Source of the DNA: Thermomonas carbonis
GTDB lineage: Bacteria; Pseudomonadota; Gammaproteobacteria; Xanthomonadales; Xanthomonadaceae
Direction: 5' to 3'
Length of the DNA stretch: 64,000 nucleotides
Assembly (NCBI RefSeq): GCF_014396975.1
Contig: NZ_CP060719.1
Location: forward strand, 2,266,001-2,330,000
Below the pieces are notes generated by a model, which was given only the letters and a program-made list of their open reading frames with translations, did not search any database and had not been told where the DNA came from. The number at the start of each line of letters is the position of its first letter. Position 1 is the stretch's first letter. Shown piece after piece: positions 1,280 to 27,956 of this stretch. Made by a program: the position numbers and the translations under genes.

Positions 1280-2476
1280 TTGAAGAGTGACTTGTTTCCT
1301 GACGCGGTTCTCGGCGTCGAAGAGCTGCATCGCCATTTCGCACAGGAGATCGTCGAGATCGACCGCGCGCTGCTGGCCCTTCTGACCGGCCTAGGTCCGC
1401 CCAGCACCCACTACGGGATGTTGAGTTACCACTTCGGTTTCGTCGACGCAGGCCTGCAGGCACTGCCAGAAGGAGGATACCTGCCGCGCGGCAAGCGCCT
1501 GAGGCCGGTGATCTGCAACCTGCTCTGCGGGGCGTTCGGATTGCCTCGGCGCGTCGCCAAGCAGTTGATGATGGCGGCCGAGGTCATGCATTCCGCCAGC
1601 CTTGCGCACGACGACATCCAGGACCGTGACGATCTGCGATGGAACCGCCCGACGCTGCACGCGGTATTCGGCCTGGAACAAGCCATCAATGCCGGCGACG
1701 CGTTGATCGGGATGGTCTACCGGTTATTGCTGGGATTGACCGCCCAGGGTGTGGCGCCGTCGCTCGCGCTGGACGTGATTGCCGCGTTCAATCGGGCGCA
1801 CTTGCTGATGTGCGAGGGCCAGCATCTCGATCTTTCGTTCCGGTACGACAGCATTGCAGGTGCCGATGAGTATCTCGAAATGGTCGAGCGCAAGACCGCG
1901 GCGGCCTGCGTCTGTATCGGCGAAAGCATCGCGATACTGGCTTCGGCGCCGCCGCAGGCACGCGAGGCCCTGGTTGAATTCGGCCGCTCATTCGGAGTCC
2001 TTTACCAGGTTTGCGACGATGTGCGCGGCATCTGGAGCCTGCCCGATTCACTGGGTCGCGAAATCGGCCACGACGTACTCCTGCAACGCCCGACACTACC
2101 GCTGCTATTTGCGAGCCAGCATGGCTCTGCCAGGTTGCGGGCGATGCTGTTGCGCGCGTCCGGGCGGGCTACGCCGCTGTCGGTCTTCGAACTGAAGTCG
2201 TTCCGCACCGAACTCACCAATTGTGGTGCAGGCCAATACTGCCTGGATGCAGCCGTACTTCACCATCGGTCGGCGCATGCGGCGCTGACGTCCATGGGCA
2301 GGGAATGCGCCGGGATCGACGCCCTGCGGGGCATGGTGGACGCCTGCCTGTCCTCGGTGGAAGCCCTGTTGCTCCATGCACCCATTGAGTTTCCTGCAGC
2401 TTCCACCCGGCCTTCATCAGGACCCGGCTACTCGCAGGTTGCCCCGGAACATGACCCGGCGAGCATGGAAAAATGA
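1280..2476 (+). CDS. Trans-polyprenyl diphosphate synthase (IspA/IdsA family)
   Basis: Condenses isopentenyl diphosphate onto an allylic diphosphate to build a prenyl chain. The first Asp-rich motif DDIQD is at about residues 111-115 and the GKRLRP substrate motif at 71-76. The second Asp motif reads DDVRG (about 246-250) rather than DDxxD; this form with a following GIW is seen in some geranylgeranyl-type synthases. The TTG at 1280 was chosen because an AAGGA lies 7 nt upstream and the family fold begins just after it; an ATG at 902 would add 126 unrelated residues. Product length is 398 residues. It overlaps the ABC permease by 4 nt (ATGA), so it is coupled to glycan export. It may supply a lipid anchor or the donor for the UbiA enzyme on the opposite arm; chain length is unknown. 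Confidence 0.85.
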   Translation: MKSDLFPDAVLGVEELHRHFAQEIVEIDRALLALLTGLGPPSTHYGMLSYHFGFVDAGLQALPEGGYLPRGKRLRPVICNLLCGAFGLPRRVAKQLMMAAEVMHSASLAHDDIQDRDDLRWNRPTLHAVFGLEQAINAGDALIGMVYRLLLGLTAQGVAPSLALDVIAAFNRAHLLMCEGQHLDLSFRYDSIAGADEYLEMVERKTAAACVCIGESIAILASAPPQAREALVEFGRSFGVLYQVCDDVRGIWSLPDSLGREIGHDVLLQRPTLPLLFASQHGSARLRAMLLRASGRATPLSVFELKSFRTELTNCGAGQYCLDAAVLHHRSAHAALTSMGRECAGIDALRGMVDACLSSVEALLLHAPIEFPAASTRPSSGPGYSQVAPEHDPASMEK

Positions 2477-3315
2477 CCGAGAATTCGGCGTCCAGCCCGC
2501 TTCGACGCCCGCGCGAATTCCTCGTTGCCATCAGGACCGACATCGCAAGTTCGATGGTCCTGGCGCGCTTGCTGCTGGGTGTGCGTCTCACGCAACTCTA
2601 TAGGCATTCGTCGCTGGGACTCCTTTGGGCGATCGTCCCCACGCTGGTCATCACCATCGGCGTGACCCTGGGATTGCCAGACGCCCGCGAGCAGCGTCTG
2701 GTGCCGACCGATGTGGTGCCGATGCAGGTCCACGTGGCGTTTGGCGTGGTGCTGATGCAGACCTTCGTGGAAGCATTCAATGGGCAGCGCAGCATCTTCG
2801 ATCTGCACCTGTCGCTCTTGCGGCGGATGCGCTTCCCGCTGGAGGCGGTGTTCCTGGCGCAGGTTGCCGAGAGTGCCTTCAACCTGCTGGCGAAGATGCC
2901 CGTGCTGTTGTTGGTGTTGATCGTCTTTGGCGTCCAGTTGAAGCCCGTGTTGCTGCTGGGCCTGCTGGCCTGCGTCCCGGTCTTGTTGGCGGGCGTCGCC
3001 GCGGGTGCGTTGCTTGCGCCCCTCAGTGCGCTGGGCAAGGATCTCGACCGCGCCATGGTTTTTCTGCCGTGGCTGCTGTTCCTGCTCACGCCGGTGTTCT
3101 ATCGCACGCCGTTGACGGGTGCGTGGGCCGCGTTCCAGGCCTTCAATCCACTGACAGCGATGCTGGATGTGGCGCGTCATCTGTCCTATGGCGGCGGGAG
3201 TCCGCACTGGCCAACCTACTGGTTTGCGCTGGCGGCGGTGGCTGTTGCCGTACCTGCGGGCCTGGTCGTTTGCAAGCTGGCTCCGCCGCACCTGGCAGAG
3301 AGGTTGGCGGCATGA
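2473..3315 (+). CDS. wzm: ABC-2 type polysaccharide export permease (Wzm-like)
   Basis: Integral inner-membrane subunit of an ABC transporter that moves lipid-linked polysaccharide to the periplasm. The 280-residue protein has the Wzm/KpsM layout: a cytoplasmic N-terminal amphipathic stretch (FLVAIRTDI...LLLGVRLTQLYR), then about six hydrophobic segments. The family signature L(x)YRHSSLGLLWAIVPTL is at about residues 43-58. The length is normal for the family. The start overlaps the preceding synthase stop by 4 nt, and the ATPase gene follows within 17 nt. Coupling to Wzt with a C-terminal domain argues for an O-antigen-like or capsule-like substrate rather than a small molecule. Confidence 0.9.
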   Translation: MTENSASSPLRRPREFLVAIRTDIASSMVLARLLLGVRLTQLYRHSSLGLLWAIVPTLVITIGVTLGLPDAREQRLVPTDVVPMQVHVAFGVVLMQTFVEAFNGQRSIFDLHLSLLRRMRFPLEAVFLAQVAESAFNLLAKMPVLLLVLIVFGVQLKPVLLLGLLACVPVLLAGVAAGALLAPLSALGKDLDRAMVFLPWLLFLLTPVFYRTPLTGAWAAFQAFNPLTAMLDVARHLSYGGGSPHWPTYWFALAAVAVAVPAGLVVCKLAPPHLAERLAA

Positions 3316-3331
3316 CGGCGGGGTCCAGGGC

Positions 3332-4774
3332 ATGACGGCGCTCGGCGAAACCCTGATCCGCGTCGACGCGGTGTCGAAGCGCTTTTGCCGTCGCGGTGAC
3401 CGGATGCTGCGCTATGGCATGCAGGACCTGGTTCGCGACCTGGTCCTGGCACCGCCGCGCGACATGCTGCGCGAGGGCGAGTTCTGGGGCTTGCGCGACA
3501 TCAACCTGACCATCAGGCGCGGGGATGTCATCGGGCTGGTCGGCCACAACGGCGCTGGCAAGAGCAGTTTCCTGAAATTGCTGGCGGGCATCTATCGCCC
3601 AACCCTGGGCTCGATCACGATCAATACCGCCAAGGTCGCGCTGCTCGACCATGGCGCCGGCCTGGACCCGATGCAGACAGGTCGGGAGAGCATCTTCACC
3701 AAGCTTGCCCTGCTGGGGCAAGAGCCCGCGCAGATCCACGAACGCGTGGATGCCATCATCGCCTTGGCCGAACTTGGCCATGTCATCGACGCGGCGGTCT
3801 GCACCTACAGCACCGGCATGCGGGTACGCCTTGCCTTCGCGATCTATGCCAACGTCGATGTCGACATCTTCATCGTCGACGACAGCCTGGGTGTCGCCGA
3901 TATCCGCTTCGCGCAACGCATGCAGCGGTACTGGCAGGATTTCGTCGCGGCCGGTGGCACGTTGCTGCTCGCGTCCCACGAGATGTACCAGATGCGATCC
4001 TTGTGCCGCCGGGCGCTGTTGTTCGACCATGGCCGGATCGTCGGCGAAGGCGACACCGAGGCCATCATCGCGGAATACCTGCTGCGAAGCGCACCGCCTG
4101 GCGCCACCGCGGAATGGCAGTCTGAAGGGCAGGAGCCAGATGTCGTGCCTGCCTTTGAGGTGCCCTCAGCAGAAACGGTGTTGACGGAATTGCCGACTGA
4201 AGGGCAGAGCGCACTTGCAATTGAGCGGTTCGCGCGCTTTTCCGGTTCCGGCGCCTTTCCGGTTCGTATCACCGCCATCGAAACCGAGGCTGAACCCGCC
4301 GTTGGGCCCCGGGCTGTCCAGGTACAGGGACAACTGAAGGTGCGCGTCCACTGTGAATCCGATATTGAATTGGAGCGGGTGCTCTTCGGGCTTGAAATCT
4401 TCAATGCCCACAAGCAGGTGGCCATTCACGTGCGGGGTCCCGACGCTGCTCCGTACTACCGCTTGATGCAAGGACGCAACGTGTTCAGTGCGACGCTGGT
4501 CCATGTGCCGCTCATGCCCGGCCAATACAGTGTGTGCGCTGCCCTGGTGGACAGCGAGAGCAAGGCCATACTGGGCATGCGCGGCTGGGAGGAGGGGGGC
4601 GATCCGCTGACCGTACTTCCCAGCTTTGGCAACGATTTGCTGGGCGCCGTTTCCCGTTCAGCGTTGATGACTGCAGGGGTGCACTGGATGATCGATTCAG
4701 TGGCCAATCCCGGGGATGTCGCCCGCAACGATGAGCATAGCGTCATCAGCGACGCCTTGGTGCAACAGGGATGA
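3332..4774 (+). CDS. wzt: ABC transporter ATPase with C-terminal substrate-recognition domain (Wzt-like)
   Basis: Drives the Wzm channel. The nucleotide-binding domain occupies about residues 1-265: Walker A GHNGAGKSS (71-79), signature YSTGMRVRLAFA (159-170) and Walker B IFIVDD (179-184). The catalytic glutamate position is Asp184, where the family usually has Glu. Residues of about 300-480 form a second domain like the Wzt C-terminal beta-sandwich that recognises the finished non-reducing end of the glycan. The start at 3332 was preferred because upstream in-frame codons lie inside wzm. Product length is 480 residues. It overlaps the first oxygenase gene by 4 nt. The extra domain implies that the exported polymer carries a specific terminal modification, which the neighbouring oxygenases could help make (inference). 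Confidence 0.9.
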   Translation: MTALGETLIRVDAVSKRFCRRGDRMLRYGMQDLVRDLVLAPPRDMLREGEFWGLRDINLTIRRGDVIGLVGHNGAGKSSFLKLLAGIYRPTLGSITINTAKVALLDHGAGLDPMQTGRESIFTKLALLGQEPAQIHERVDAIIALAELGHVIDAAVCTYSTGMRVRLAFAIYANVDVDIFIVDDSLGVADIRFAQRMQRYWQDFVAAGGTLLLASHEMYQMRSLCRRALLFDHGRIVGEGDTEAIIAEYLLRSAPPGATAEWQSEGQEPDVVPAFEVPSAETVLTELPTEGQSALAIERFARFSGSGAFPVRITAIETEAEPAVGPRAVQVQGQLKVRVHCESDIELERVLFGLEIFNAHKQVAIHVRGPDAAPYYRLMQGRNVFSATLVHVPLMPGQYSVCAALVDSESKAILGMRGWEEGGDPLTVLPSFGNDLLGAVSRSALMTAGVHWMIDSVANPGDVARNDEHSVISDALVQQG

Positions 4775-6776
4775 CCCGAATCGCCACCTCACCTGATCTC
4801 CATCTGGATCGACCCGCCGCCATGAGACCCTTGTTCAAATCCAGCGAGCTGCAAGCCGACTTCGATCGTGATGGCTACGTCGTCGTACCGTTCCTTGATG
4901 CCGACGAAGTCGCAGCGCTCAATGCCCACTACGCGTCGTTGAACCACGATCACGCCACGTCGCAAGGGTTCCACGTGAGCCTGGACAGCACCGACCGGGC
5001 ATTCAAGCGGGCGACGATGGACAAGCTTCAGCAGGCCGCCCGCGCCAGGATCGATCAGGTCTTTGATCGCGCCAGGATCTTCGTGGCCAGCTATGTGGTC
5101 AAGGAACCGGGGCCGCGTGGGATCGTCCCCCCGCATCAGGACTGGACCTTCGTCGACGAGAGCCGCTTCGTGTCCTGCACCGTCTGGATCCCGCTTGCCA
5201 GGACGACCGTGGACAACGGCGCGCTTGGCGTCATTTCAGGCAGCCATCGGCTGTTCGATCATGCGCGCGCCTCGCCCTCGCCCCAGTGCCCCACACCGAT
5301 CGGCGACTTGATGTTCCAGATCTTCCCGTTCCTGGCCATCAAGGAAATGGAGGCCGGCCAGGCGTTGATCTTCAATAATCGAACGCTGCACGGATCCCCG
5401 CCCAACCTGAGCGAGGTGGCGCGCGTGGCCGTCGGAATCGGGGTCACTCACGAAGAGGCCGATCTCCGGCACCACTACCTCCTGCCGGGGGCGAGTCGCA
5501 GCAGATCGAGTGCTACCAGGTCGAGCCGGAATTCTTCCACGAGTACAGCAATACCTCGCTGTCGCAGCTCTACAACGAGGGTGGACGGCCCGAGGGCCAA
5601 GCCACCCTTGGGCTGAGTCCTTTCGTGCGCCAGCCTGCCGATGCCGCCGCCCTGACAGAGATGTTTGTGCGAGACGGCAACCACTTCGACACTGCGCTCG
5701 GCGAGCGCATGGCCCGCTTGCTCGGGCAGGCCGGGGCGCCAGCATCGGCCGAACCGGCATCGGCATCGGCATCGGTGCCAGCGCCGGGCTATTCCTTCAA
5801 CGCCGATTTTCCGCCCATGAAGCGGGTGTTGCGTGAGTTGGGGCTGCAACAGGCGCTGGAGCGGGACGGCTACGTGATCGTCGATTTCATCGACGCCGGG
5901 CAGGTCGCGGCGCTGGAGGAGCACTATCGCAAGACTCACCCTGATCCGGTTGAAGGCTTTTATGCCAGTACCTTTGCCGGCGACAAGGCCTATCGGGAAG
6001 ACGTGGATCGCAAGATCCGCGAAGTCTGCAACGATCGTATCCAAGCCTTGACCCGGGACATCAAGGTCATTTTCGGCAGCTACATCGTCAAGGCAAGCGA
6101 CGAGGGCAGCCAGATGAACATCCACCAGGACATGACGTTGGTGGACGAGAACGAGTTCTGCGGCATCAATATCTGGTGCCCACTGGTAGACCTGGACGAG
6201 CATAACGGGGCCCTGCACGTGCTTCCGGGCAGCCACAGGCTGCTGCGCACATTGCGTGGATCCACCATTCCGGCCATCTACGACGGCGTGCGCGACGAAA
6301 TCAACGAACTGCTCCGCCCGGTGCACCTGCGAGCCGGCCAAGCCATCATCTTCGACCAGAGCATCATCCATTTCTCGCCGCCCAACCATTCCGGTTCCGA
6401 TCGCGTGGTCATCAACATCTTCTTCTCCCACGAAGACGCACGGATGCTGATCTGCCACCTCGATCGAAGTCAGGCTGAGCCCAAGGTGGAAGTGTTCGAA
6501 GTGGACGATTCTTTGCTGCATGTCTACGAGCACTTCGGCACCGACATCAATGCCCGGCCCAACATCGGCCGGAGCCTCGGCATGGTCGACTACGCATTTC
6601 CGGCATTGACCCCTGACAGCTTGCGACAGCACTATCCTGCAGCTGCGATCGGTTCCACCCAAGCGTCGATCGCCGGTGCAGCGCCAATGGCCGGCGAGCC
6701 GCTTGCAGGAGCAGCCAGCGGCTGGCGTGGCTGGTTGCAGCGCCTGCTGGCATCCCGAGGAGCCACGTCGCGATGA
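4771..6776 (+). CDS. Double-domain PhyH Fe(II)/2-oxoglutarate oxygenase, frameshifted
   Basis: Two PhyH (phytanoyl-CoA dioxygenase family) domains in one gene, interrupted by an apparent -1 frameshift in a G5 run at 5487-5491. Read as given, the first frame ends at 5616 after a nonsense Ser/Arg-rich tail, and the second frame is open from 5491 through 6776. Adding one G gives a continuous protein of about 668 residues. Domain 1 has the iron ligands H122 and D124 (PPHQDW), distal H207 (TLHGSPPNL) and 2-oxoglutarate Arg R218. Domain 2 has NIHQDM and IIHFSPPNH. An Ala/Ser/Pro linker separates the domains. Such enzymes hydroxylate or otherwise oxidise unactivated C-H bonds; the substrate is unknown. 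It overlaps wzt and the next PhyH gene by 4 nt each. The break could be real or a homopolymer error. Confidence 0.8.
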
Positions 6777-7672
6777 CCCGGGTACCCACCATGATTTCCC
6801 CCCTGCTTCAGGATCCCGCGTCGTGGCGGCGACTGCACGATGACGGGTACCTTCAAACACCGCTGTTGCCTCGCTCCGCCGTGCAGAACTTGCTGGCGGC
6901 ATTCGAGCAATTTCATCCGCAGCTTCCGGAAACCGGTTTCGTCTCGAGCACGTACTCGCCCGACCTGGCGTACAAGCGAGCCGTCAGTGAATGCATCACC
7001 GAAATCATTCGGCCGCATGTGGATTCCGTGTTCCAGAACCATCGAGTGCTGGGCGCAGCCTTCCTGTACAAGATGCCCGGCCCCCAGTCCCGGCTGCCGC
7101 TGCATCAGGACTGGACCGTGGTAGACGAGGATCGGTTCATCGCCGCCAATGTCTGGATGCCCCTGGTGGATGCCGACGCCGACAATGGCACGCTCTGCGT
7201 CATGCCGGGCAGCCACAGGGTCATGCGCAGCATTCGGTCGCCCACCCTTCCTTTCTGCTATTCCGGGCACGAGGACCTGATGCAGCAGCACATGCGCTCG
7301 CTGCCGACCAAGGCCGGCGAAGCGGTGATCGTGAACCAGGCGACGGCCCACTGTTCCCCGCCGAACCTGCGCCGAACCGTGCGTCCTGCCATTACCGTTG
7401 GCGTGGTCTCGGCGCAGGCTCGCTTGCGCTTCTACTACCGTGATCGACAGCACAACGACCGTCGCTTGGAAATGTTCGAACAGGAAGACGATTTCTTCCT
7501 TCGATTCGATGACTTCCATCGCGACATCTTTGCGCGACCCCGTTTCGGTCGGGTGGTGGCCGAGCTTGACTACCCTGATCCGACTCGATCGGAAAGCGAA
7601 ATTGCAGCGATGATCCAGGAATGCCAGCGCCTCTCCCCGGAACCGACGGAGGGTGGACGCTCTTGGAGGTAA
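6773..7672 (+). CDS. PhyH-family Fe(II)/2-oxoglutarate-dependent dioxygenase
   Basis: Third PhyH domain of the array, 299 residues, the normal single-domain length. The facial triad is visible as LHQDW (His, Asp) and TAHCSPPNL (distal His), with a following R-PAITVGV segment that would bind 2-oxoglutarate. The family landmarks NVWMPLVDAD, DNGTLCVMPGSHR and GEAVIVNQ are all in order. It starts at an ATG overlapping the previous stop (ATGA). Being complete and triad-intact, it is expected to be active. The reaction is probably hydroxylation of a lipid, sugar or amino-acid substituent in the exported product; nothing in the sequence fixes the substrate. Confidence 0.88.
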   Translation: MTRVPTMISPLLQDPASWRRLHDDGYLQTPLLPRSAVQNLLAAFEQFHPQLPETGFVSSTYSPDLAYKRAVSECITEIIRPHVDSVFQNHRVLGAAFLYKMPGPQSRLPLHQDWTVVDEDRFIAANVWMPLVDADADNGTLCVMPGSHRVMRSIRSPTLPFCYSGHEDLMQQHMRSLPTKAGEAVIVNQATAHCSPPNLRRTVRPAITVGVVSAQARLRFYYRDRQHNDRRLEMFEQEDDFFLRFDDFHRDIFARPRFGRVVAELDYPDPTRSESEIAAMIQECQRLSPEPTEGGRSWR

Positions 7673-8553
7673 CTGGCGCCCATCACAGGCCGCTGTTGGC
7701 CGACGCTGATGCCGAACGCTCACTCACGCGCGACGGTTATGTCGTCCTGAGGCTCCTGTCTGCAGTCGCGGTGCAGCGGCTGCTCGACGAACTCTCGGGG
7801 TGGGTACCCGATTTTCCGGATGGCTTTTATGCGTCGGTGCATGCGCCTGACGCCGGTCTTCGCGCGACCGTCAGTGCTCACCTGCTGGCCACGTTCCGAC
7901 CCCTGCTCGCGTCGGCCTGCCGCGAGGAACGTCTTTTGGGTGGGGCCTTCATCAACAAGGCGCCTGGACCGCGTGGCGCTTTGCCGCCCCATCAGGACTG
8001 GAATATCGTCGATGAAAGGCACCACCGGTCGTTCAATGTCTGGGTGCCGCTGGTCGGCACCCATGCCGAGAATGGCGCCATCCAGGTGTTGCCCGGCAGC
8101 CATCGATGGTTGCCGACCGTGCGCGGTCCCAACATCCCCTGCGTCTATCGCGAGTTGCACGAGGAGTTGCGCGCTTTGATGACGATCCTGCCGATGCTTC
8201 CGGGCGATGTGCTGATCTATGACCATCGTCTGCTGCACTGCTCGGCAGCCAACCTCGGCGCGGCCCCGCGCCCCGGCGCGGTGATGGGCCTCGTACCTGC
8301 CGAAGCCGAACTCAAGCACTATTTCGCGGAAGGTGATCAGGTCCGGCGATATCATTCGGACGTGCAATTCCTGTTGAGCGGCCAGACCCACCTGCCCCCG
8401 GCCAGGCTATGCCCGGAGGTCTTGTTCGACCATGACACCACGGCGCTTGGCGGCGAACAACTGAAGCGGATCCGGGCCGCATCATGCGCGCCGCCCCACC
8501 ATGACCCACGAGCACAGGATCAGATGAATCGCAGAAAGGAACGTGCACCATGA
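7621..8553 (+). CDS. PhyH-family Fe(II)/2-oxoglutarate-dependent dioxygenase
   Basis: Fourth PhyH domain. Iron ligands lie in PPHQDWNIVDE and LLHCSAANL; the NVWVPLVGTHAENGAIQVLPGSHR core is typical. The ATG at 7621 gives 310 residues but overlaps the previous gene by 52 nt. A TTG at 7663 preceded by GGAGGG at 7648-7653 would give 296 residues and may be the true start. The C-terminus (after about residue 280) is basic, His/Arg-rich and not conserved with its neighbours. It overlaps the next oxygenase by 4 nt. The substrate is unknown; tandem location suggests a stepwise or parallel modification with its paralogues. Confidence 0.86.
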   Translation: MPAPLPGTDGGWTLLEVTGAHHRPLLADADAERSLTRDGYVVLRLLSAVAVQRLLDELSGWVPDFPDGFYASVHAPDAGLRATVSAHLLATFRPLLASACREERLLGGAFINKAPGPRGALPPHQDWNIVDERHHRSFNVWVPLVGTHAENGAIQVLPGSHRWLPTVRGPNIPCVYRELHEELRALMTILPMLPGDVLIYDHRLLHCSAANLGAAPRPGAVMGLVPAEAELKHYFAEGDQVRRYHSDVQFLLSGQTHLPPARLCPEVLFDHDTTALGGEQLKRIRAASCAPPHHDPRAQDQMNRRKERAP

Positions 8554-9439: not shown

Positions 9440-9441
9440 CC

Positions 9442-11510: not shown

Positions 11511-11521
11511 GCGCGACCGCG

Positions 11522-12379: not shown

Positions 12380-12478
12380 AGTCGGTTCAACGGTGTTGAC
12401 GGCCGGCGCTTGCGCAATTGAGTGCGAACGGGGCCACCTTCGAAAATTTCCACCACTGCTGTTTGAGGAGCCTGAGAA

Positions 12479-16540: not shown

Positions 16541-16605
16541 CAACGGCCTCGTTGGATGATTTCGCAGCGGTCAGGCGATCCAGGCTGAACCTGCATTCCT
16601 GATGC

Positions 16606-18458: not shown

Positions 18459-18657
18459 GCGTGCGCCGGCAAGGTCGATCTCACGTTAGCGAGTCGGGCT
18501 CGCCCCAGGTTCCGCCGAGGCTAACGGTTGCTTCGATGATCTGACAACCGGCAACGCCTGTTGAAGCCGACTTGGCCACTGGAGGTCAGGCCCTGCCACT
18601 CCCTGGCACCGCACCTTGATCCGCGCCATCTGGCGCGCGGCGATCCGGAAAGCCACC

Positions 18658-21354
18658 TCAGGCAAGGCGATTCCACGACCCGGCTTCCTTGACGAATCGC
18701 CGGGCATCCTGGGCACTGGGGAATCTCCCGAAGGCAGTGGAAGTCGGCAGGTCCACCGGGAAGATCGAGCATCCCGCCACGCGGGGTGGCGGAGGGCGGA
18801 TGGGTCCTGGCAGGCGCCGGAAGCCTCGAGCCTCGGGATCGAGCATCAGCCGCACGAACAGGTCCAGATAGCGATCGATCATCTGCTCGGTGCGTGTCGA
18901 AGCCTTGCGCACCATGCGATGCGCGCAGGAGGCCATTTCCCGGCGGCGCATCGGGTCCTCGATCAACGAGCGCAGCTGACGCGCCGCGATGTGGACATTC
19001 CCGTCCGCCGCCACTAGTCCGCTGCTGCCGTCGATGATCAGCCAATCGCTTGGAGGCGAAGGACCAATCCAAAGTGGGATGCAGCCATTGCCCATCGCCT
19101 CCAGCACCAGCGGGCGCAGCTCGGTGTTCCCCGGGCCAGCTACGACGAAGTCATTGCCCCGGCAGAGCGCCAGCCATTGCTGACGATTGGGCTCGATGAC
19201 AATCTGCGCGCCCATCGCCAGCAACTCGGGTTGGCAGGCCTTTGTCGGGTCGATGACGACGATTCGGGATCCCGGCATGCAGGTCGCGATCGCCGAAAAC
19301 ATCCGCGGCAGCCAGCCGTGCTCGCCGTGCTGCAGTCCCGCCCCCAGTATGACGATCGACACACCCACACCCGCGTCGACCGCCCACGCTCGTTCGAGCC
19401 GAGGTACAAGAAAATCCAGCCCGTTCTCGATCATCTCAAGGCGGTCTTCGATACCTGGTATCTGTTGCCGCAGATGGCGTGAGAGCCCAAGGTCGGTTGT
19501 CACGACAGCATCCCAACAATCCCGAAGTCCCGCCACGTGCTCCGTGTACAGAGCGCTGGCCTCGTGCACCATGCCGATGACCTTGACGCGATCTGATAGC
19601 GCCGGAATGACACTGGAATGTCTCCAGTCGTAGTTGGGGATGTAGATGCAGGGCGCCGCCGCCTCCAATGTCCGGATCATCGCGCCCCAGCGTGCCCCCC
19701 AGTTTTCCTGCCCGGACAGCATCAGTTCCTGGAACGGTATATCGCTGGCGCGGCCAAGCCGTGGTTCGTCAATATGGACCAGGCCCGTGGACTCTTCGGT
19801 CAACAGAATCCGTGCGGAAAGTCCGGACTTGCGGAGGCCGCGCACCAAGTCTTCCGACCATCGATTGACACCATTGCAGGTCCAGGCCGGGGCTGACACG
19901 AATACGGGAAGCCCCTCGAGGGTCCGGGCTGGTCTGCGTGCGCTGACGCGCTGGCGTCGCCGTCCCTGCTCGCTGCTCGCGACCTTCGCTGTGCCCGCGA
20001 CCGCCAGGATGTAAGCCTCGCAGTCGTCGACTGAAGGAAAGTCACCCAGGCCACCTTCGTGATGAGTCAACTCGACCGGGAACAGACTAATGCCAGCGAC
20101 TTCCCGAGGTGGCGGTGACAGCGCCTCGCGCGTTCGGATGAAGCGCCCTTCGCGGACCGCTTGCCACCCGTCAGCGAACACACGCCGGTAGGCGGCGACC
20201 ATGTCCTCGACCCGGAACCCCCCGCCATGCGCCGTTTCATGGGCATGGGCTGCCATCTGTTCCCGGCGTTCAGGATGCTGCCAGAGGAATTGCAGGCGCT
20301 CGGCAAAGGCTATCGTGTCGCCGACCGACACCATGAATCCGTTGATGCCGTCGTCTACGAGTTCGGGAATGCCGCTCTCCATACGACTGACGACCGGGAC
20401 ACAGCCCCGGCCCATCGCCTCGATCAAGGCGTTGGGCATGCCCTCGAAGGCAGAGGCCAGCAGGTAGACATCATGCTGCTCCAACAGGGTTGCCACGGAG
20501 TCGGGTGAAACCACACCAAGAAACCTGACGGCCCCGCGCTCTACAAGCGTATTACAGGCGTCCCGGAGCGCTGCTTCGTCAGGTCCCGCCCCCACGATGC
20601 TCAACTCCACCGGGACGCCGAGGTCCAGGGCATGCTGGACGATTTTCGGGAGATCCAGTACGCGCTTCTGATGCTGTTTCAATACGCCGTGATAGATCAG
20701 TCGCAACACGCCGGCGGAGCGGTTCCGGACAGGGCGTGACGGGGGAATGTTCACGCCGATCGGGATGGTGATGATCCGGTCGGCAAGCTCGGGACACAGC
20801 TCGGCGACACGTCGTGCTACGGCCCCGCTGACGGCGACGATCACATTCCAGTAGCGTCCCAGGCGCTGCACATGGTCGTAATGCAGTGGATCGTCACTGT
20901 GGACGACCCCGACAACCACCACATTCTCGGACAGCCGTGGGCAGACCATCGAATGACGCCAGTCCGAGTTGGGGATGTAGATGCAGGGCGCGGCCTCTTC
21001 CAGCAGGCGCACCATGTGCCCCCAGTGTGCCCCCCAGCCCTGGGAGTAGCCAACGGGCAACTCCTGAAAAGGCACGCCGTCGGGACGTGGCATCAACGCC
21101 TCGTCGGTGTTGATGAGCCTGGAGTCGTGTTCCGTCAGCAGTACCTGTGCGGAAACATTCGCCTCCAGCAGTCCACGCACGAGATTGGCGGAGAAAACGT
21201 TGACGCCGTTGACGGTCCAGGTGGTTGCTGCCGCGATCACCTGGACATCCGGGGGCGGGCATGCCTCTTGCACTGGGTCCGCGGATGCTCGAAACCACCG
21301 ACGATGCACCGCCAAGGCCCATGCACGCACTGCCGCCGGAAGCGACTGGCTCAT
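18658..21354 (-). CDS. Tandem GT4-like glycosyltransferase, two homologous units
   Basis: An 898-residue protein made of two related GT-B-like halves. Both halves share WT-NGVN, LLTE, PFQEL, a W(G)A-WG block, then APCIYIPN-DWRHS at about residues 130 and 610. Unit 1 (about 30-460) keeps a full donor site, with FEGMPNALIEAMGRGCVPV giving the E-x7-E pair. Unit 2 (about 485-890) has NTELRPLVLEAMGNGCIPL, a degraded or divergent site. Each unit ends with a similar VAGxSxFPV tail. The ATG at 21354 overlaps the upstream gene by 4 nt; an open frame further upstream overlaps that gene and was rejected. It may add two sugars, or use one half as a regulatory or binding module. Direct duplication is visible; function is inferred. 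Confidence 0.83.
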   Translation of the reverse strand: MSQSLPAAVRAWALAVHRRWFRASADPVQEACPPPDVQVIAAATTWTVNGVNVFSANLVRGLLEANVSAQVLLTEHDSRLINTDEALMPRPDGVPFQELPVGYSQGWGAHWGHMVRLLEEAAPCIYIPNSDWRHSMVCPRLSENVVVVGVVHSDDPLHYDHVQRLGRYWNVIVAVSGAVARRVAELCPELADRIITIPIGVNIPPSRPVRNRSAGVLRLIYHGVLKQHQKRVLDLPKIVQHALDLGVPVELSIVGAGPDEAALRDACNTLVERGAVRFLGVVSPDSVATLLEQHDVYLLASAFEGMPNALIEAMGRGCVPVVSRMESGIPELVDDGINGFMVSVGDTIAFAERLQFLWQHPERREQMAAHAHETAHGGGFRVEDMVAAYRRVFADGWQAVREGRFIRTREALSPPPREVAGISLFPVELTHHEGGLGDFPSVDDCEAYILAVAGTAKVASSEQGRRRQRVSARRPARTLEGLPVFVSAPAWTCNGVNRWSEDLVRGLRKSGLSARILLTEESTGLVHIDEPRLGRASDIPFQELMLSGQENWGARWGAMIRTLEAAAPCIYIPNYDWRHSSVIPALSDRVKVIGMVHEASALYTEHVAGLRDCWDAVVTTDLGLSRHLRQQIPGIEDRLEMIENGLDFLVPRLERAWAVDAGVGVSIVILGAGLQHGEHGWLPRMFSAIATCMPGSRIVVIDPTKACQPELLAMGAQIVIEPNRQQWLALCRGNDFVVAGPGNTELRPLVLEAMGNGCIPLWIGPSPPSDWLIIDGSSGLVAADGNVHIAARQLRSLIEDPMRRREMASCAHRMVRKASTRTEQMIDRYLDLFVRLMLDPEARGFRRLPGPIRPPPPRVAGCSIFPVDLPTSTAFGRFPSAQDARRFVKEAGSWNRLA

Positions 21355-22565
21355 GGCGCTGCGCTGCGCGTGCCTTGGTAGATGGCGACCGCGGCCTGCG
21401 CCAGGCGCGAAGCGTCGTGCGAACGTTCGATCGTCTTTCGGGCTTCCCGTCCAAGCCGGGAACGCAGCTCGGCATCCTCGATCAGCCGTTCGATGCTGGC
21501 GACAAAGGCGGGGGCGTCGCCGACATCCGCTAGCAAGCCATCGACGCCGTCGCGGATGATCTCCGGCATGCCGCCCTGGTTGGAAGCGACCACCGCCCGG
21601 CCCGCTGCCATGGCTTCCAGGCAGGAATAGGGGCAGTTCTCCCACAGACTGGGCAGCAACACCACGTCAGCGGTGCGCACGAGTTCCCGGAGATCTGCCA
21701 TTGGCAATTTGCCGACGGCATGAACCGATCCCTTCAGGCGTCGTGCGGCTAGGCGCGGCAGCAGGTCAGTGCCTACGTGGCCGAAAAGATCCTCGCCAGA
21801 AAGTACCAGGTTGACGTCGAATCGCTCGAGTATCGACGTCGCGATCTCGTTCATCAGCGCGATGCCCTTGCGCTTTTCCATTCGCCCGGCGAATACGATG
21901 GTGGGGACACCTCGCCGAAGTCCGTGGCGGGCGTGGACATCACGGGGCTCGAAGGCACGGTCCATCCATCCCAGGTCAAGCCCATTGGAAATGACCTGGC
22001 AGGAGCGGGCGATGCCAAGTTCCTGGCTGGCCTGCTCGGCGACAAAGCGAGAGCAGGCGGTCATGGCGGTCGCAGCGATCATGGCCCGCTTCTCGATCGC
22101 CGAGCACATAAGGGTATCCGCCTGGCGCACATCGTAGTAGGGCATGATCAGCGCGGAAGGAGAATGCAGGCGGACGACGGTGGGTACGCCCGTCCAGCGG
22201 GTGATCAAGGCGCCCTCGGCACCGCATTCGGGCATCTCGAGGATGTCGAAGCGGTGGTTGCGCAGCAAGGCGCGCATGCCCTGGAACATGCTCCAGGCAT
22301 TCTGCAGTCGTTGTTGCGTCCACCACCAGCGAAACGAGCCGGCCCGGGCGAGGATTCGCATCACCAGGCCATCAGCCCAGAAGCGGTGGACCTGCACGCC
22401 CTCCTGGTCTTCGCTCCGGAGCGGGGAGGGCTCGCTGGCACCTGCCAGAACGTGGACTTCGTGGCCGAGTTCGCGCAGCGCCCGTGCGTGGTGCCAAGTG
22501 TAGGTGCCGATACCACCGAAACCGGTCTCGGGCGGATATTCGAAGGAAAGTAGCGCAATCTTCAT
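21351..22565 (-). CDS. GT4-family glycosyltransferase
   Basis: GT-B retaining glycosyltransferase of 404 residues. The N-terminal MKIALLSFEYPPETGFGGIGTYTWH is the classic GT4 opening with the Gly-rich acceptor loop. The C-terminal lobe has FAGRMEKRKG and SLWENCPYSCLEAMAAGRAVVAS, containing the donor E-x7-E. It overlaps both neighbours by 4 nt, so it is mid-operon. It is closely similar in motif style to the GT4 half of the fusion encoded at the head of this arm (ENFPYSCIESMASG), suggesting duplication. The acceptor is probably the lipid-linked glycan; the sugar is unknown. Confidence 0.9.
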   Translation of the reverse strand: MKIALLSFEYPPETGFGGIGTYTWHHARALRELGHEVHVLAGASEPSPLRSEDQEGVQVHRFWADGLVMRILARAGSFRWWWTQQRLQNAWSMFQGMRALLRNHRFDILEMPECGAEGALITRWTGVPTVVRLHSPSALIMPYYDVRQADTLMCSAIEKRAMIAATAMTACSRFVAEQASQELGIARSCQVISNGLDLGWMDRAFEPRDVHARHGLRRGVPTIVFAGRMEKRKGIALMNEIATSILERFDVNLVLSGEDLFGHVGTDLLPRLAARRLKGSVHAVGKLPMADLRELVRTADVVLLPSLWENCPYSCLEAMAAGRAVVASNQGGMPEIIRDGVDGLLADVGDAPAFVASIERLIEDAELRSRLGREARKTIERSHDASRLAQAAVAIYQGTRSAAP

Positions 22566-23992
22566 GGCCTGTTTGCCAAGTGTCCAAGTGTGTCGCGATG
22601 CTTCAGGATCGCGCCACGTATCCGACGATGGAAATCGAATTCCGATGTGTGAACATCGTAGTCGCGTTGCACGCGAGCGATTGCGTTGGTGCCCAGCTGG
22701 CTGCGCAGCCCGTCATGACGGGCCAACGCCTGCACGGCGAACGCCAGTGCAGCCGCGTCGCGTTGCGGGACAATCAGGCCGTGGACGCCGTCTTCGATGA
22801 CTTCGACGATCGAGCCGGCATCGGTTGCGATGATGGCGCAGCCGGACGCCATCGCTTCCAGGATGGCGGTAGGGATGCCGTCCTTGTCGCCATTCGGCAG
22901 GTCGACAAATGGCGCGACGAAGATATCCGCTTCGGCGAGTTCGCGATGAATGTCACGGCTGCCTCGTTGGCCGAGAAACGTCACCGCTTGATCGATGTCG
23001 AGCTCGGTGGCCTGTGACCGCAGATTCAGCGCATAGGCTCTTGCCACCGGCGAATTCGCGTCTGCCGCACCTATGATCCTGGCGTCCACTGCCAGGCCGT
23101 TGTCCAGCAGCAGACGGACTGCCTCCACCAGGAATTCGATTCCCTTCTTTGGATCGATGCGGCAGACGCTGAGTATGCGAAGCGGTTTATCGGCCTGACG
23201 CGGCAGTCGCTCTCCGGTGAGGAATTCCGCCGTGTCGATGGCGTTTGGCTTGACCACCAAGGTCGGCAAGGGTGCGCGATGGAGCTGCTCCAGCTCCTCG
23301 GCGATGCGCCGCGAGGTCGCGACCACCACCGCACAGTCCTGCAGATGCAGGCGCACGGCCTTCAATCCGTAATCGTCCAACATGTGATCGGCGTAGCAAC
23401 TGACACCCCTGGGAATGCCTAGCAGCCGCGACGCGACCCAGGCGAACAATGTCTGTTCGTAAAAGAAGTAGCTGTGCAGATAATCCGCTTTCCATGCCTG
23501 CACCGCCCTTGCGAATGAAAAGGCCTGCAGGAAGTGCTCGTTTTGCTCCAGCACCTCGCGCGTCAGGCCTGTGGCCTGCACCAGCGCTTGCACCAGCGCT
23601 TCGACCTGTGCGGGTTGACGGCGGCGGAACCGGGCGAGGTCTCGCGCACCCGTACGTCGATGCAGGATGATGCGCTGCTTCAAGCTCCACAGCGACTCGC
23701 AGGACGGCGCCAGGTCAGTCCGCGGCGCAAGTCGTGCGTACAGGAACAGGACCATGAAGCCCGCGCGTGCCAAGGCCTGGACTTCCTGATGCACGAACGT
23801 CTGCGAATAGACTGGAAAGGTCCAGCACGCAGTGGTCATCACCCTTGGGCGTCGTTGCGGTCGACCGATCGTGTCCAGCCAGGCGCGCAGCCGCAACCGC
23901 AGGATGATGAACTCGTGGGCCGCACCCAGGAGGACAGATTTGAGTGTTCCGATCACGTCAGCCACGATCGTGACGGTGCCAATGGCGGGCAT
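22562..23992 (-). CDS. GT4-family glycosyltransferase
   Basis: GT-B transferase with the signature PVYSQTFVHQEVQALARAG near residue 60 and a donor site GDKDGIPTAILEAMASGCAII near residue 390, matching the colanic-acid WcaL-type exopolysaccharide transferases. The start at 23992 overlaps the upstream GT2 by 35 nt; a GTG at 23956, 1 nt after that stop, would give 464 residues and is an equal candidate. The first 50 residues carry a hydrophobic stretch ahead of the fold. The stop overlaps the next GT4 by 4 nt. It probably extends the exported polymer; the sugar is not predictable. Confidence 0.88.
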   Translation of the reverse strand: MPAIGTVTIVADVIGTLKSVLLGAAHEFIILRLRLRAWLDTIGRPQRRPRVMTTACWTFPVYSQTFVHQEVQALARAGFMVLFLYARLAPRTDLAPSCESLWSLKQRIILHRRTGARDLARFRRRQPAQVEALVQALVQATGLTREVLEQNEHFLQAFSFARAVQAWKADYLHSYFFYEQTLFAWVASRLLGIPRGVSCYADHMLDDYGLKAVRLHLQDCAVVVATSRRIAEELEQLHRAPLPTLVVKPNAIDTAEFLTGERLPRQADKPLRILSVCRIDPKKGIEFLVEAVRLLLDNGLAVDARIIGAADANSPVARAYALNLRSQATELDIDQAVTFLGQRGSRDIHRELAEADIFVAPFVDLPNGDKDGIPTAILEAMASGCAIIATDAGSIVEVIEDGVHGLIVPQRDAAALAFAVQALARHDGLRSQLGTNAIARVQRDYDVHTSEFDFHRRIRGAILKHRDTLGHLANRP

Positions 23993-25028
23993 AGATCCGG
24001 TCGTAGGGAATCTGCGGATCCGCGGGACAATGACGCTCGAAATTCCCGCGGTCGGCGACCAGGCGCTGCGGGACCGGACCCGATCGCATCCAGCGACGCA
24101 GAATCAATTCGAATACATGTGGCAGTACCGCCAACAGCAGATTCAGCGGCCGCGAGCGCAGTCCCCAGCGGCATGCCTTCAGGTAGTCCCGGGACCAGAA
24201 CGACATGCCCGCGATGTGCAGGGCGAACTGCCCTCGGGATCTGCGCAGGATCTCTCTGGAAATGGACGCTTGGCGAGCGGCGAGAGCGCTCATCACTTCA
24301 TGGCGGGATCGCCACATTGCCCGGTAATCGCTGGACATGCTCTCGGCGCTACGCCGGTACCCGACCAGTACCTCTGGCACCACCGCAACGTGACAGTGCT
24401 CGGCCACCCGCAGCACGAGGTCCCAGTCCTCACACCCTTGGCACCCGCTGGCACGCAACTCGGAACGATAAGCACCGAGTCGCTCGACCGTGGATCGGCG
24501 AAACAGCGGCACGCTAGCGCTGCCAGTCACATTGATCTCGACCAGGCGCTGCAGGATGCGCCCTTCGATTCGCCAACGTGGCGATCGATCCAGGATTACA
24601 TTGTCAGTATCGATCCAGGCCCACCAGCAATAGACCAGCCCGGTATCCTCGCCAGCCTCCAGCATGCGCGATACTTGCCGCGATATCTTGGTCGGATCCC
24701 AGAGGTCATCGGCGTCGAGCGGCGCGAGAAATTCCCCATTGGCTGCCGCAATCGCCTTGTTTCGCGCGGCCGCGACACCCAGGTTGGCTTGACGTATTAG
24801 CCGCAAGCGCTTGTCCGACCGTGCGAGAGCGGCAACCACTGCGGCCGTTCCATCGATCGAGCCGTCATCCACGACGATCACCTCAAGGGCCGGATAGGTC
24901 TGGGCGAGCGCCGACCGGCAGGTCTCCTCGATGAATCGCTCGGCATTGAATGCCGCCACGATCACCGAGACCAAAGGCGTCACGACTCCGGGATTTGCAC
25001 CGGGGAAGCTGTTGTCTGCATCCGTCAT
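23958..25028 (-). CDS. GT2-family glycosyltransferase
   Basis: Inverting GT-A transferase, 356 residues from the ATG at 25028. That ATG overlaps the stop of the upstream gene (ATGA), which decided the start over an in-frame ATG at 25142. Core motifs are VSVIVAAFNAERFI, EVIVVDDGSIDGT, LDADDLWDP (the DxD at about residue 105) and GCEDWDLVLRV near 210, the ED catalytic-base region. The basic C-terminus (about 290-356) may associate with membrane. It lies second in the leftward operon. Donor and acceptor are unknown. Confidence 0.9.
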   Translation of the reverse strand: MTDADNSFPGANPGVVTPLVSVIVAAFNAERFIEETCRSALAQTYPALEVIVVDDGSIDGTAAVVAALARSDKRLRLIRQANLGVAAARNKAIAAANGEFLAPLDADDLWDPTKISRQVSRMLEAGEDTGLVYCWWAWIDTDNVILDRSPRWRIEGRILQRLVEINVTGSASVPLFRRSTVERLGAYRSELRASGCQGCEDWDLVLRVAEHCHVAVVPEVLVGYRRSAESMSSDYRAMWRSRHEVMSALAARQASISREILRRSRGQFALHIAGMSFWSRDYLKACRWGLRSRPLNLLLAVLPHVFELILRRWMRSGPVPQRLVADRGNFERHCPADPQIPYDRIYARHWHRHDRG

Positions 25029-27245
25029 TGGTCTGGACCCTTGCGCATGTTCCCGCCCTGGTCGCAGCCGACCGCTTCGCAATGCCTGGCCGATGTGGAA
25101 CAGGCCCTGCTGATCCGGAACCAGAGCCATCGTCCCAGCCACAGCAAGGACACGGTCGGCTCGCGCAGGACCCGTTGGCTAAGCGCTCGCCATTCTGCAG
25201 GGCTGCATTCGCGAATTCGCTGCGCCAGCGGTGTATGCATGTTTCGTATGGCACGCGCCATCAATGACAATCGCGCCGGATCGGTGAAGTTGGCCTGGGC
25301 GAGAGAGCCCGGAACGATCGAAAGCAGCGCGGCCGGGTACGTGAGCCCCCCCAGCCGGAGCTGGCCACTTGGTCGAGAACCTCGCGGCGCGACAGACCCG
25401 AACCGGTGTCGCCCGCCGCGCGAATGGCGGTCGCCAAGGCTTCGGCTCTTACCAGGACGCAGGGCTCGAAATGCCCGCCCCAGCCCAGGTCGGGCCGTGC
25501 CGGCAAGGGCGGGACAAGAATGCGATCTGCATCGGGATCGGCAAGCATCCACGCGCCCACCATGCCGAGGGAGGAATCTTGCTCAAGCGCACCAAGAGAG
25601 GTCGACAGGAAGGCGTCGTCAAGATGCACGCGGGCATCCAGAAAAGCGATGGCGGTCAAGCTCGGGTGGTGGGCCAGCATTTTCCTTGCTGCAACCATTT
25701 CTGCACGGCCGTCAGCCCCCCCCTCTGCACGCACTATTTCCCAACCGGGTTCGGAAACGTGTGTTGCCAGCACGTGTGAAGCCGCAAGGCACACGATGCT
25801 GACCGCGTTCGGTGAAAGATCCTGGGCGCGTAGCGAAGCCACAAGCGGCTCCGCTCCCCCTGTCCCCGGACGCTCACAACCACGCCGAGATTGGCAGGGC
25901 CGTCGGAGTGCCCTGTGCAACGCCCTTTCACGATGTCTGCCGCGGGAGCGGAGGCTCGAGACAGTGGGAGTGTTCCTCGCCCCTTGTGCTTGCGAATCAG
26001 CCGATCCTTCAGCTGCAGGTGCCGGCGCACCACCTCGGCGTTATCGCATGTGCGGGTAACCGCCGAGCGAGCAGCCCGACCCATACGCTCGCGCTCGGGG
26101 CCAGACGATGCCAATGCTCGCCGCAGTGCGCCGGCCAGCCCGGGCGGAGATGCCTCGGATGCGATCCAACCCGAGACGCCGTCGCTTACCAATTCGCGCA
26201 TGCCCCCGTTCGGGGAGACGATCACCGGCAATCCACTGGCCATGGATTCGATGCAGCTGTAGGGAAAATTCTCCCATCGAGACGGAACGATCGCTGCACA
26301 GGCACCGGCCAGTATGTTCGCCACTCCGACCGCGTCACAGGAGCCATGAAATCGAAACTGGTTGCGCACGTGGGCCGGTACCCGGTTGCGTATCGCCTCA
26401 CCTACCCCGAGTCCACCGGTGACCTCCATCGGCGTATCGCCACCGACGAAGTCGATCCTCAAATCGGGGTATTCGACCGCGATGGCAGCAACCGCATCCG
26501 CCAGCTCGATCACGCCCTTGCGCGGCTCGAGTCTTCCTACATGGCAAATCGATCGGCCGGACCAGACCCGCGAGGAACGCTCCAACGGCAGTGCGTCACC
26601 GATCGGATAGGGCAAGACCGTGATGTCCGAGCTCTGGATTCCATGGCGAAGCATGGCTTCTTCGGCAATGAAACGGCTGGGTGACAACAAGGCATCACAG
26701 GCACCAATCGAGAATGCTTCTGCACTCGCGGCCGGTGCGTAGTCCAGGACACTGGTATCCCATGCATTGGCCGCGAAAATCTGTTCGGTCGAGGAATGCA
26801 GGTGCACCACGCATGGGGGGTGCCTGGCCGGACCGAGTCCAAGCCGTCGCCGCAGTTGTAGGTAGTACAGCGGCGCCTCCCATTCCTGCGCCTCGATGAC
26901 GTCGATTCCCTCGGCCTGGATCAGGCTTTCCGCCAGCAGCGCCACCTGCCAGGAGAAAGCCTGGGCTGGAAAGGTGGAGGTAGTCATTGCCCGTCTCGCT
27001 CGAGGGTCACGGTCGGCGTTCGACGGAGAAAACCGATCCAACACAGGCTGATCGAATGCAATCCTGTGGATGATCAAGCGGCCATGGACTGATTCCTCGC
27101 ATGCCTTGGATGCGCCTGCCCATCGATGAGCAACGACATGCACGGTTTCGCCTGCCTCGGCCAACAGGCCGGCGATGTGCCGCACATAAGTACCAATGCC
27201 ACCCGGGGGATACGCAGCGGGGGGGTATTCGCGGCAGACCAACAA
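25025..27245 (-). CDS. GT4-GT2 fusion glycosyltransferase with two apparent frameshifts
   Basis: First gene of the leftward arm. An N-terminal GT4 domain (about residues 1-400: EYPPAAYPPGGIGTYV, RLEPRKG, ENFPYSCIESMASG) runs into a C-terminal GT2-like domain that lies in other frames. Frame 1 stops at 25734; restoring one base in the C4 run at 25864-25867 joins it to GTGGAEPLVASLRAQDL and FLDARVHLDD. A second break in the C7 run at 25346-25352 must be repaired to reach LTYPAALLSI and the stop at 25025, which overlaps the next ATG. The corrected protein is about 740 residues. The given start is TTG at 27245; CTG at 27254, 5 nt after AGAGG, fits the family start better. Both breaks contract homopolymers, so error is possible; otherwise the GT2 half is lost. 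Confidence 0.75.

Positions 27246-27866: not shown

Positions 27867-27956
<90 letters not shown>

Follow-up and report, generated by a model that had tools for sequence, protein, structure and literature searches.

An inserted island beside tRNA-Ser in Thermomonas carbonis combines prenyl enzymes, seven PhyH domains and a Wzm/Wzt exporter

In the 64,000-nucleotide stretch of Thermomonas carbonis DNA studied here (the window), we found a gene island whose relatives turn up in a small number of distant bacteria. It therefore seems to encode a genuine pathway that has yet to be described; no description of such a pathway was found in open-literature searches. We give roughly even chances to a reading in which the island was horizontally acquired and its genes form a modular pathway. 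The product would be an oxidised glycan bearing a prenyl or terpenoid group, which an O-antigen-type ABC transporter (Wzm/Wzt) would export. The substrate, product and location of the pathway are set out below as we infer them.

The locus is an inserted low-GC island adjoining tRNA-Ser. It is larger than the first-pass annotation, which had placed it at 1280..27245; the genes described there are present in that interval, and the unit also includes a methyltransferase gene (3..836, − strand) and 4.1 kb to the left of the window. The island measures 31,982 bp (~32.0 kb) and has a GC content of 62.6%, vs 65.9 and 67.5% in the flanking backbone. The corresponding site spans 250, 268, and 210 bp in three relatives (G016, G010, and G002, respectively). 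Synteny with three relatives returns at 27863-27865, beside the tRNA-Ser(cga) gene (27867..27956, − strand, predicted by ARAGORN) that is the island's right neighbour. Imperfect 84-bp inverted repeats (left copy L105:15923-16006, right copy 27690..27771; 72.6% identity, E 3.6e-7) lie near both island ends; their local score is 49, and 500 mononucleotide shuffles gave none above 27.

All of the components listed in the first-pass annotation were co-located according to Pfam and NCBIfam domain matches, and its view of the locus as a single unit is supported by comparison with other genomes. Most of the set recurs, kept together with block rearrangements, in a genome of another Lysobacterales family (G054), where the counterparts share 54-83% identity; the exceptions are the UbiA protein (40%) and ORF 25261-25920 (35% over 176 aa). 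About half of the set recurs on a Methylomagnum plasmid. The homologues co-occur rather than being scattered separately, and this exceeds what chance would give: another family of the order keeps most of the set, and at E <= 1e-40 the FGE-domain protein was detected only in the source genome and G054 among 398 genomes of the order. The UbiA protein is similarly rare and not of a housekeeping kind. It was present in two of 60 relatives (the source genome and G054), in one of 369 genomes of the class (the source genome), in two of 398 genomes in a profile search of the phylum (the source genome and G1068), and in one of 289 genomes of the class of G1068 (G1068 itself). Among 72,556 plasmids, UbiA matched three records and the third PhyH protein five, the top-ranked of which were the three UbiA records.

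Glycosyltransferase (GT) domains were confirmed, at about nine rather than the previously estimated ten within 1280..27245: Pfam matches fall in eight ORFs, one of which (18658..21354, − strand; Glycos_transf_1, 90.6 bits; 60% over 922 aa in G054) is a double GT4 by homology. A single GT4 enzyme is encoded on the + strand (9442..10554; Glycos_transf_1, 109.8 bits; 69% in G054). The − strand carries GT4 enzymes at 21351..22565 (115.4 bits; G054 69%, Methylomagnum 55%), 22562..23992 (102.8 bits; 59 and 53%), and 25734..27245 (91.7 bits; 58 and 59%), and GT2 enzymes at 23958..25142 (116.7 bits; G054 65%, Methylomagnum 56%, G1068 and Novosphingobium 42%) and 15536..16543 (Glycos_transf_2, 72.9 bits). 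The last has no clear orthologue in G054 (best match 39% over 143 aa), and an adjoining Glyco_tranf_2_4 protein (16606..17400, − strand, start approximate; 43.8 bits) went unmatched in the other loci at E 1e-5. A further GT2 and a GT87 protein are encoded just left of the window. The description of the genes as mostly coupled by 4-nt overlaps proved too strong, as exact 4-nt overlaps were found at seven of 20 junctions, counted over 13 + strand and nine − strand ORFs with starts of our choosing.

Several genes in this strain appear broken relative to their counterparts. The ORF at 25261..25920 (− strand) corresponds to the middle of a GT4-containing protein in another frame; together with the GT4 at 25734-27245 and the GT2 at 23958-25142 it makes up one 990-aa protein in Methylomagnum, and in G054 the GT4 and the middle piece form one ORF and the GT2 a separate one. 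The first two PhyH domains are a single 654-aa ORF in G054. In the window the first shows a frame change near 5487-5490, leaving its C-terminal end out of frame with respect to the fused G054 protein, and the fifth shows one near its end (9245-9326). From these frame breaks, together with a transposase fragment, the window copy seems to be decaying or mis-assembled, and the pathway is probably damaged in the source strain.

Two prenyl enzymes are encoded in the island. The trans-polyprenyl diphosphate synthase (1280..2476, + strand; ORF from 902, homology from 1337; PF00348, 165.7 bits; 63% identical in G054) is one of three such genes in the genome. Its top NCBIfam match was the Family 2 encapsulin cargo prenyltransferase model NF041169, but at 171.6 bits it falls below that model's cut-off of 450. 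The UbiA-superfamily membrane prenyltransferase (17433..18458, − strand; PF01040, 43.8 bits, cut-off 34.2) is encoded in a genome that has two other UbiA genes. It belongs to a subfamily known from seven loci, the window included, and N63, D64, D67, D71, D198, and D202 are kept in all seven members. Both the NDxxDxxxD motif and the second Asp-rich motif of prenyl-diphosphate transferases are thus retained, therefore the protein, judged by its motifs, probably uses prenyl diphosphates rather than PRPP. Chlorophyll synthase models matched all seven members at E <= 1. By profile comparison chlorophyll synthases are the nearest named relatives; the window protein is not a member, with 23.8 vs 313 and 25.5 vs 212.3 bits against the ChlG/BchG cut-offs of NCBIfam. 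UbiA-like EboC of the ebo cluster has been discussed as producing a prenylated carrier that is exported to the periplasm (PMC6282210). Compared by its model, EboC matched two of the seven members (best E 0.0046), and the locus described here differs in having Wzm/Wzt and GTs.

The island also recalls the three-component pentofuranose addition system (PPPRS; PMC11127046), in that a Wzm/Wzt glycan locus contains both a member of the UbiA superfamily and GT87, an enzyme of GT-C type. The island UbiA could accordingly be a polyprenyl-phosphate phosphoribosyltransferase with the GT87 protein as its GT-C partner, which we consider very improbable. In that family, cytoplasmic loop IV contains an Arg and a Glu (R366 and E369 of ORF15), whereas the subfamily described here has D198 and D202 in all seven members, at positions that we read as equivalent. 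The DPPR synthase model of NCBIfam matched one of the seven members (16 bits vs a cut-off of 207, E 0.0045), compared with seven of seven for chlorophyll synthase, and no HAD-type phosphoribose phosphatase was found among the island ORFs scanned.

The exporter consists of a Wzm-type permease (2473..3315, + strand; ABC2_membrane, 33.7 bits; 71% in G054) and a Wzt-type ATPase with a C-terminal extension (3332..4774, + strand; ABC_tran, 71.2 bits; 61% in G054). With many GT4 and GT2 enzymes and an adjoining methyltransferase, these resemble an ABC-transporter-dependent O-antigen locus. It is conceivable, though in our judgement doubtful, that the product is a conventional O-antigen or capsule whose synthesis begins with a WecA-type enzyme acting on undecaprenyl phosphate and whose sugars are oxidised by PhyH enzymes; the prenyl synthase and UbiA would then make some other, accessory lipid or quinone. 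Elsewhere in the genome, three genes score above cut-off for PF00953 (MraY/WecA-type) and two for PF04932 (ligase/polymerase-type), and no initiating phosphoglycosyltransferase was matched by Pfam among the island ORFs scanned. What the island adds to such a system is its own trans-prenyl synthase, a UbiA with both Asp-rich motifs, seven PhyH domains, a radical SAM protein, and an FGE-like protein.

Gene fusions bear on the same question. A Nostoc PhyH-GT4-GT2-GT2 protein is compatible with oxidised sugars of a conventional glycan. UbiA is fused to PhyH twice, as MT-UbiA-PhyH on an Oscillatoria plasmid and as PhyH-UbiA-cyclase-like-TPR on a Nostoc plasmid, and it stands with Wzm/Wzt in six of the seven loci, a sample found via UbiA itself and its neighbours and so not a blind one (no Wzm/Wzt is annotated in the Oscillatoria locus). 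Such company is unexpected for an unrelated passenger. The two UbiA-PhyH fusions, the PhyH-glycosyltransferase fusion, and the recurrent Wzm/Wzt support the proposal, made in the first-pass annotation, that the prenyl enzymes and glycan export are connected. Its further suggestions, that the sugars in particular are oxidised, that the FGE-like protein is an oxidase and that Wzt recognises a modified end, are conjectural.

Tailoring enzymes are abundant. Seven PhyH domains (60.2-85.5 bits, cut-off 22) are encoded on the + strand at 4771..5616 (85.5 bits), 5625..6776 (71 bits), 6773..7672 (62.8 bits; 69% in G054), 7621..8553 (start 7621 or 7663; 74.1 bits), 8550..9302 (60.2 bits), 10551..11510 (73.8 bits), and 11522..12379 (ATG at 11522; 73.6 bits); all seven matches found in the 3.46-Mb genome fall in the locus. 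They form seven one-to-one orthologue pairs with G054 (63-79% identity), vs 25-32% between paralogues within the window. The HxD...H iron site is present in six; in the fifth, HxN replaces HxD in both the window and G054. PDB-based comparison gave as relatives EvdO2 and SnoK/SnoN, which we take to act on sugars, in keeping with a conventional O-antigen too. The class I SAM methyltransferase at 3..836 (extending past the window start; Methyltransf_11, 58.3 bits; 79% in G054, where it adjoins UbiA, and 39% in Methylomagnum) is related to 3bus and 5gm1, presumably RebM and TleD.

The 529-aa FGE-domain protein (12479..14068, + strand; 77% in G054) has an unassigned N-terminal part and an FGE/SUMF1-like C-terminal domain (FGE-sulfatase, residues 302-514, 111.2 bits). 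Alignments to two PDB entries stop at profile position 461, short of the cysteine region; C504 and C510 are conserved in G054, with a spacing that we take to be unlike the active-site cysteine pair of FGE. Its structure model was of low confidence (pLDDT 33.7). The radical SAM protein (14124..15398, + strand) carries SPASM and Radical_SAM domains and exceeds the cut-off of the twitch-domain family NF033640 (353.5 vs 170 bits).

Related loci vary in composition. Those of G1068 and Novosphingobium have few GTs together with cyclase-like and sulfotransferase genes, and G1068 has a P450. The cyclase-like protein occurs in three related loci, joined to a Wzm/Wzt locus, and was not found in the window; it resembles class II terpene cyclases, with best PDB profile matches to drimenol synthase (9mhs, E 2.5e-11) and a squalene-hopene-type enzyme (8paj, E 1.1e-7), and DxDDT is kept in all three. 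These features, and natural-product enzymes among the PDB relatives of the PhyH, methyltransferase, and cyclase-like proteins, would fit export of a small natural product carrying sugars (an oligosaccharide antibiotic, or a terpenoid glycoside that is sulfated or oxidised) instead of a surface glycan. We regard this as unlikely, given the eight window ORFs with GT domains and the Nostoc Wzt, whose Wzt_C domain scores 58.2 bits vs a cut-off of 30.4; the window Wzt reaches 20.1, below it. In O-antigen systems Wzt_C binds long glycans (PMC11127046).

For the exported prenyl- or terpenoid-bearing glycan, the following route may be proposed. The extra trans-prenyl synthase would supply a prenyl diphosphate, and UbiA would move the prenyl group onto an acceptor in the inner membrane to give a lipid head, which the cyclase-like protein of related loci may fold. 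Methylation by the methyltransferase and oxidation by the PhyH (Fe/2OG) dioxygenases would act on the prenyl part, the attached sugars, or both, with a P450 possibly performing the oxidation in one relative. The sugar chain would be built by the GT4 and GT2 enzymes; an intact UGM-like mutase, present in two relatives, perhaps gives a furanose donor, and the radical SAM and FGE-like proteins may alter a sugar or the head group. The product would then be flipped by Wzm/Wzt, and GT87 may attach a final sugar outside.

More tentatively, it is possible that these loci define a new class of exported glycan, in which a purpose-made terpenoid or meroterpenoid lipid end replaces undecaprenol. Such a saponin-like surface glycan would arise from a dedicated prenyl synthase and UbiA, optional cyclisation, multi-site hydroxylation by PhyH or P450, glycosylation at those sites, and flipping by Wzm/Wzt, in a pathway that plasmids and islands carry between Proteobacteria and cyanobacteria. 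If a prenyl- or terpenoid-bearing glycan is indeed the product, ABC-exported glycans would not all be O-antigens built on undecaprenol, a single mobile, modular pathway would unite terpenoid biosynthesis with glycan export, and the twitch radical SAM family would gain a concrete pathway context. The recurring locus also lets one ask why seven distinct PhyH domains persist. A defined UbiA subfamily and its recurring gene partners, in named strains, allow the nature of the lipid end to be tested. Among the carriers of the locus are Methylomagnum ishizawai RS11D-Pr and Nostoc sp. C052.

The polyprenyl-diphosphate synthase (PPS), UbiA, Wzm/Wzt, PhyH, FGE-domain, radical SAM and glycosyltransferase components named in the first-pass annotation were all confirmed in the locus by Pfam and NCBIfam. 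The genome of Thermomonas carbonis, of the order Lysobacterales, is a single contig of 3.46 Mb. All seven PhyH matches of the whole genome lie within the locus. Two more polyprenyl synthase genes and two more UbiA genes were found elsewhere, and the synthase and UbiA of the locus therefore come on top of the presumed housekeeping set. The best-supported reading is a modular pathway for a prenyl- or terpenoid-bearing, oxidised glycan that is exported by Wzm/Wzt. Its basis is gene content, conservation, insertion, gene fusions and motifs; the chemistry of all steps, the acceptor and the product with its place on the cell are inferred from these. A conventional O-antigen with oxidised sugars is a less likely alternative, in favour of which genes of initiating and ligase type are present elsewhere in the genome and sugars are substrates of some PhyH relatives. 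The best NCBIfam match of the PPS (window 902-2476) was the model for family 2 encapsulin cargo prenyltransferases; assignment as such a cargo was rejected at 171.6 bits against a cut-off of 450. Structure prediction of the FGE-like protein was unsuccessful (pLDDT 33.7).

The locus belongs to an inserted island. Flank alignment with three relatives of the same genus (G016, G010, and G002, picked among the matches for being single-contig genomes) showed that synteny ends on the left at L105:15866-15872, in the DNA preceding the window, and resumes on the right at window 27863-27865. Here lies the 3′ end of tRNA-Ser(cga), which is encoded on the minus strand (27867-27956) and is the island's right neighbour. 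Between the same two points the relatives have 250, 268, and 210 bp, respectively. With L105:15881 and window 27862 taken as its ends, the insert is 31,982 bp long and has a GC content of 62.6%, compared with 65.9% in the left flank and 67.5% in the right. Slightly inward of each end lies one copy of an imperfect inverted repeat (L105:15923-16006; window 27771-27690). The two copies share 72.6% identity across 84 bp (E 3.6e-7); their local score is 49, and none of 500 mononucleotide shuffles scored above 27. The repeat was found nowhere else in the 143 sequences compared, a match in L106 being the same place. These repeats suggest transposon-like ends; no transposase matching them was found. 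No copy of the tRNA end in direct orientation was seen at the left border, nor was an integrase among the scanned ORFs of the left 4.1 kb, where ORFs were scanned in part. This stretch encodes a GT2, a GT87, and a fragment of a DUF772 transposase. At E ≤ 1e-10, UbiA had no match in a sample of 24 genomes of the same genus and 11 of the same family, which includes incomplete genomes. Phage origin is without support, as searches of viral contigs with the FGE and UbiA alignments returned no relative.

A counterpart of the island was identified in G054, a metagenome-assembled Lysobacterales genome of another family. Identities of 54-83% were observed for the methyltransferase, PPS, Wzm, Wzt, the seven PhyH domains, GT4, the FGE protein, the radical SAM protein, the double glycosyltransferase, the four right-hand glycosyltransferases, the left GT2, and GT87. 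Identity was lower for UbiA (40%) and the ORF at 25261-25920 (35%), and the order of blocks differs between the two genomes. No G054 counterpart was found for the Glyco_tranf_2_4 protein and the transposase, nor a clear orthologue for the GT2 at 15536-16543 (39% over 143 aa). PhyH domains pair one-to-one between the two versions at 63-79% identity, whereas identity is 25-32% in the 21 pairs within the window and 23-33% in the 42 non-matching cross pairs. The seven are thus separately maintained domains, not recent copies. The HxD...H iron site is present in six of them; in PhyH5 (window 8550-9302) HxN replaces HxD in both genomes alike. The FGE protein was detected at E ≤ 1e-40 in 2 of 398 genomes sampled from the order. 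In an alignment scan of genome contigs, which used a generic FGE pattern, only the protein on a G054 contig (L012, 77%) was judged an orthologue among the 80 matches listed, the other 79 being FGE-domain proteins at 28-44%. The G054 version of the island also encodes two extra CBM_4_9 proteins (L011:14055-16109 and L134:1234-3024), one of them with a GDSL hydrolase domain.

Several reading frames are broken in the window relative to these homologs. PhyH1 and PhyH2 form a single ORF in G054, and the match in the window shifts frame near 5487-5490; a further frame shift occurs in PhyH5 near 9245-9326. GT4 (25734-27245), the ORF at 25261-25920, and GT2 (23958-25142) together correspond to one 990-aa protein of Methylomagnum; G054 has GT4 and the middle part in one ORF and GT2 in another. 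G054 and Methylomagnum both encode a full-length flavoprotein resembling UDP-galactopyranose mutase (UGM); the best PDB matches of the G054 protein are UGMs. Left of the window this flavoprotein is reduced to a C-terminal part in two frames, which the DUF772 transposase fragment adjoins and partly overlaps (L105:17655-18563). Given the frame changes and this remnant, the copy of this strain is probably damaged or partly mis-assembled. A frame-break control could not separate the two: a second frame was found in 9 of 47 backbone ORFs of the relatives vs 1 of 19 in the island, a comparison that is too noisy, and several of the backbone cases are suspected to be antisense ORFs.

Relatives of the UbiA protein are rare. 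Matches were found in 3 of 72,556 plasmids, namely Methylomagnum ishizawai pRS11DPr1, Oscillatoria acuminata pOSCIL6304.01, and Nostoc sp. C052 pC052_D; PhyH3 alone as query matched five plasmids, of which the top three were these same three. A UbiA profile search of 398 genomes of the phylum returned the query genome itself and G1068, a more distant genome, and a tblastn search with the Nostoc protein led to a locus in Novosphingobium sp. RL4. Together with the window and G054 this gives seven UbiA loci, as reached by the searches and not as a census. Glycosyltransferases are present in all seven, Wzm/Wzt in six (none is annotated in Oscillatoria), PhyH in five, sulfotransferases in five, and a PPS was found in three; G1068 has a P450. 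A pentofuranose pathway was rejected as the main reading: UbiA has D198 and D202 at positions, equated by eye, where the phosphoribosyltransferases carry Arg and Glu (PMC11127046), and the DPPR synthase model matched in one of the seven. In the VIA-align family list used for the UbiA comparison, absence of a family does not amount to its exclusion.

Gene fusions connect these functions. In Oscillatoria the methyltransferase, UbiA, and PhyH are fused in one 1108-aa protein, and in Nostoc a 1218-aa protein combines PhyH, UbiA, a further domain, and TPRs. A second Nostoc fusion of 1597 aa (L096:12088-16881) contains PhyH, GT4, and two GT2 stretches. Free-standing relatives of the further domain adjoin UbiA in G1068 and Novosphingobium. 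All three proteins keep DxDDT, known as the acid motif in class II terpene cyclases. The cyclase-like profile had its best PDB match in drimenol synthase (9mhs, E 2.5e-11). Ranking after a second HAD-type entry, 8paj, a cyclase of squalene-hopene type, was also matched (E 1.1e-7). Pfam matches were weaker, with SQHop_cyclase_C at 21.6 bits against a cut-off of 26.1 for the G1068 protein and none for that of Novosphingobium. Among plasmids, the G1068 protein matched two records, Nostoc and Novosphingobium, both UbiA carriers. The loci of the window, G054, Methylomagnum, and Oscillatoria gave no cyclase-like match. A categorically new system, in which an exported glycan would be built on a purpose-made terpenoid or meroterpenoid lipid end, is a tentative proposal that we consider less likely than not. 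Of the published proposals we encountered, the ebo cluster is the nearest, with an export carrier made by a UbiA-like enzyme (PMC6282210). No description of this gene set was evident in titles and abstract openings of the open-access papers listed, subscription papers and preprints being outside this scope.

A 23-kb plasmid of Planktothrix agardhii (p3, L102) encodes glycosyltransferases, sulfotransferases, and AMP-binding and TPR proteins; it lacks a UbiA match, and its TPR region is 75% identical to the Nostoc UbiA fusion. The FGE plasmid search was uninformative, since each of its 158 records covered less than 80% of the query. The search with the double glycosyltransferase returned Methylomagnum and eight Leisingera records, of which the seven listed span at most a quarter of the query. 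The Methylomagnum locus contains four glycosyltransferase proteins or halves at 53-59% identity in the order of the window, as well as the double glycosyltransferase, PPS, UbiA, Wzm, Wzt, methyltransferase, and PhyH. Its twitch radical SAM protein, the best of 2 records in the plasmid search, is 25% identical over two thirds of the protein. Directly left of this glycan locus (L142:15786-21398) are genes for a HAD hydrolase, an N-acetylneuraminate synthase-type enzyme, an aminotransferase, and a split transketolase-type enzyme, which may supply it with an unusual sugar.
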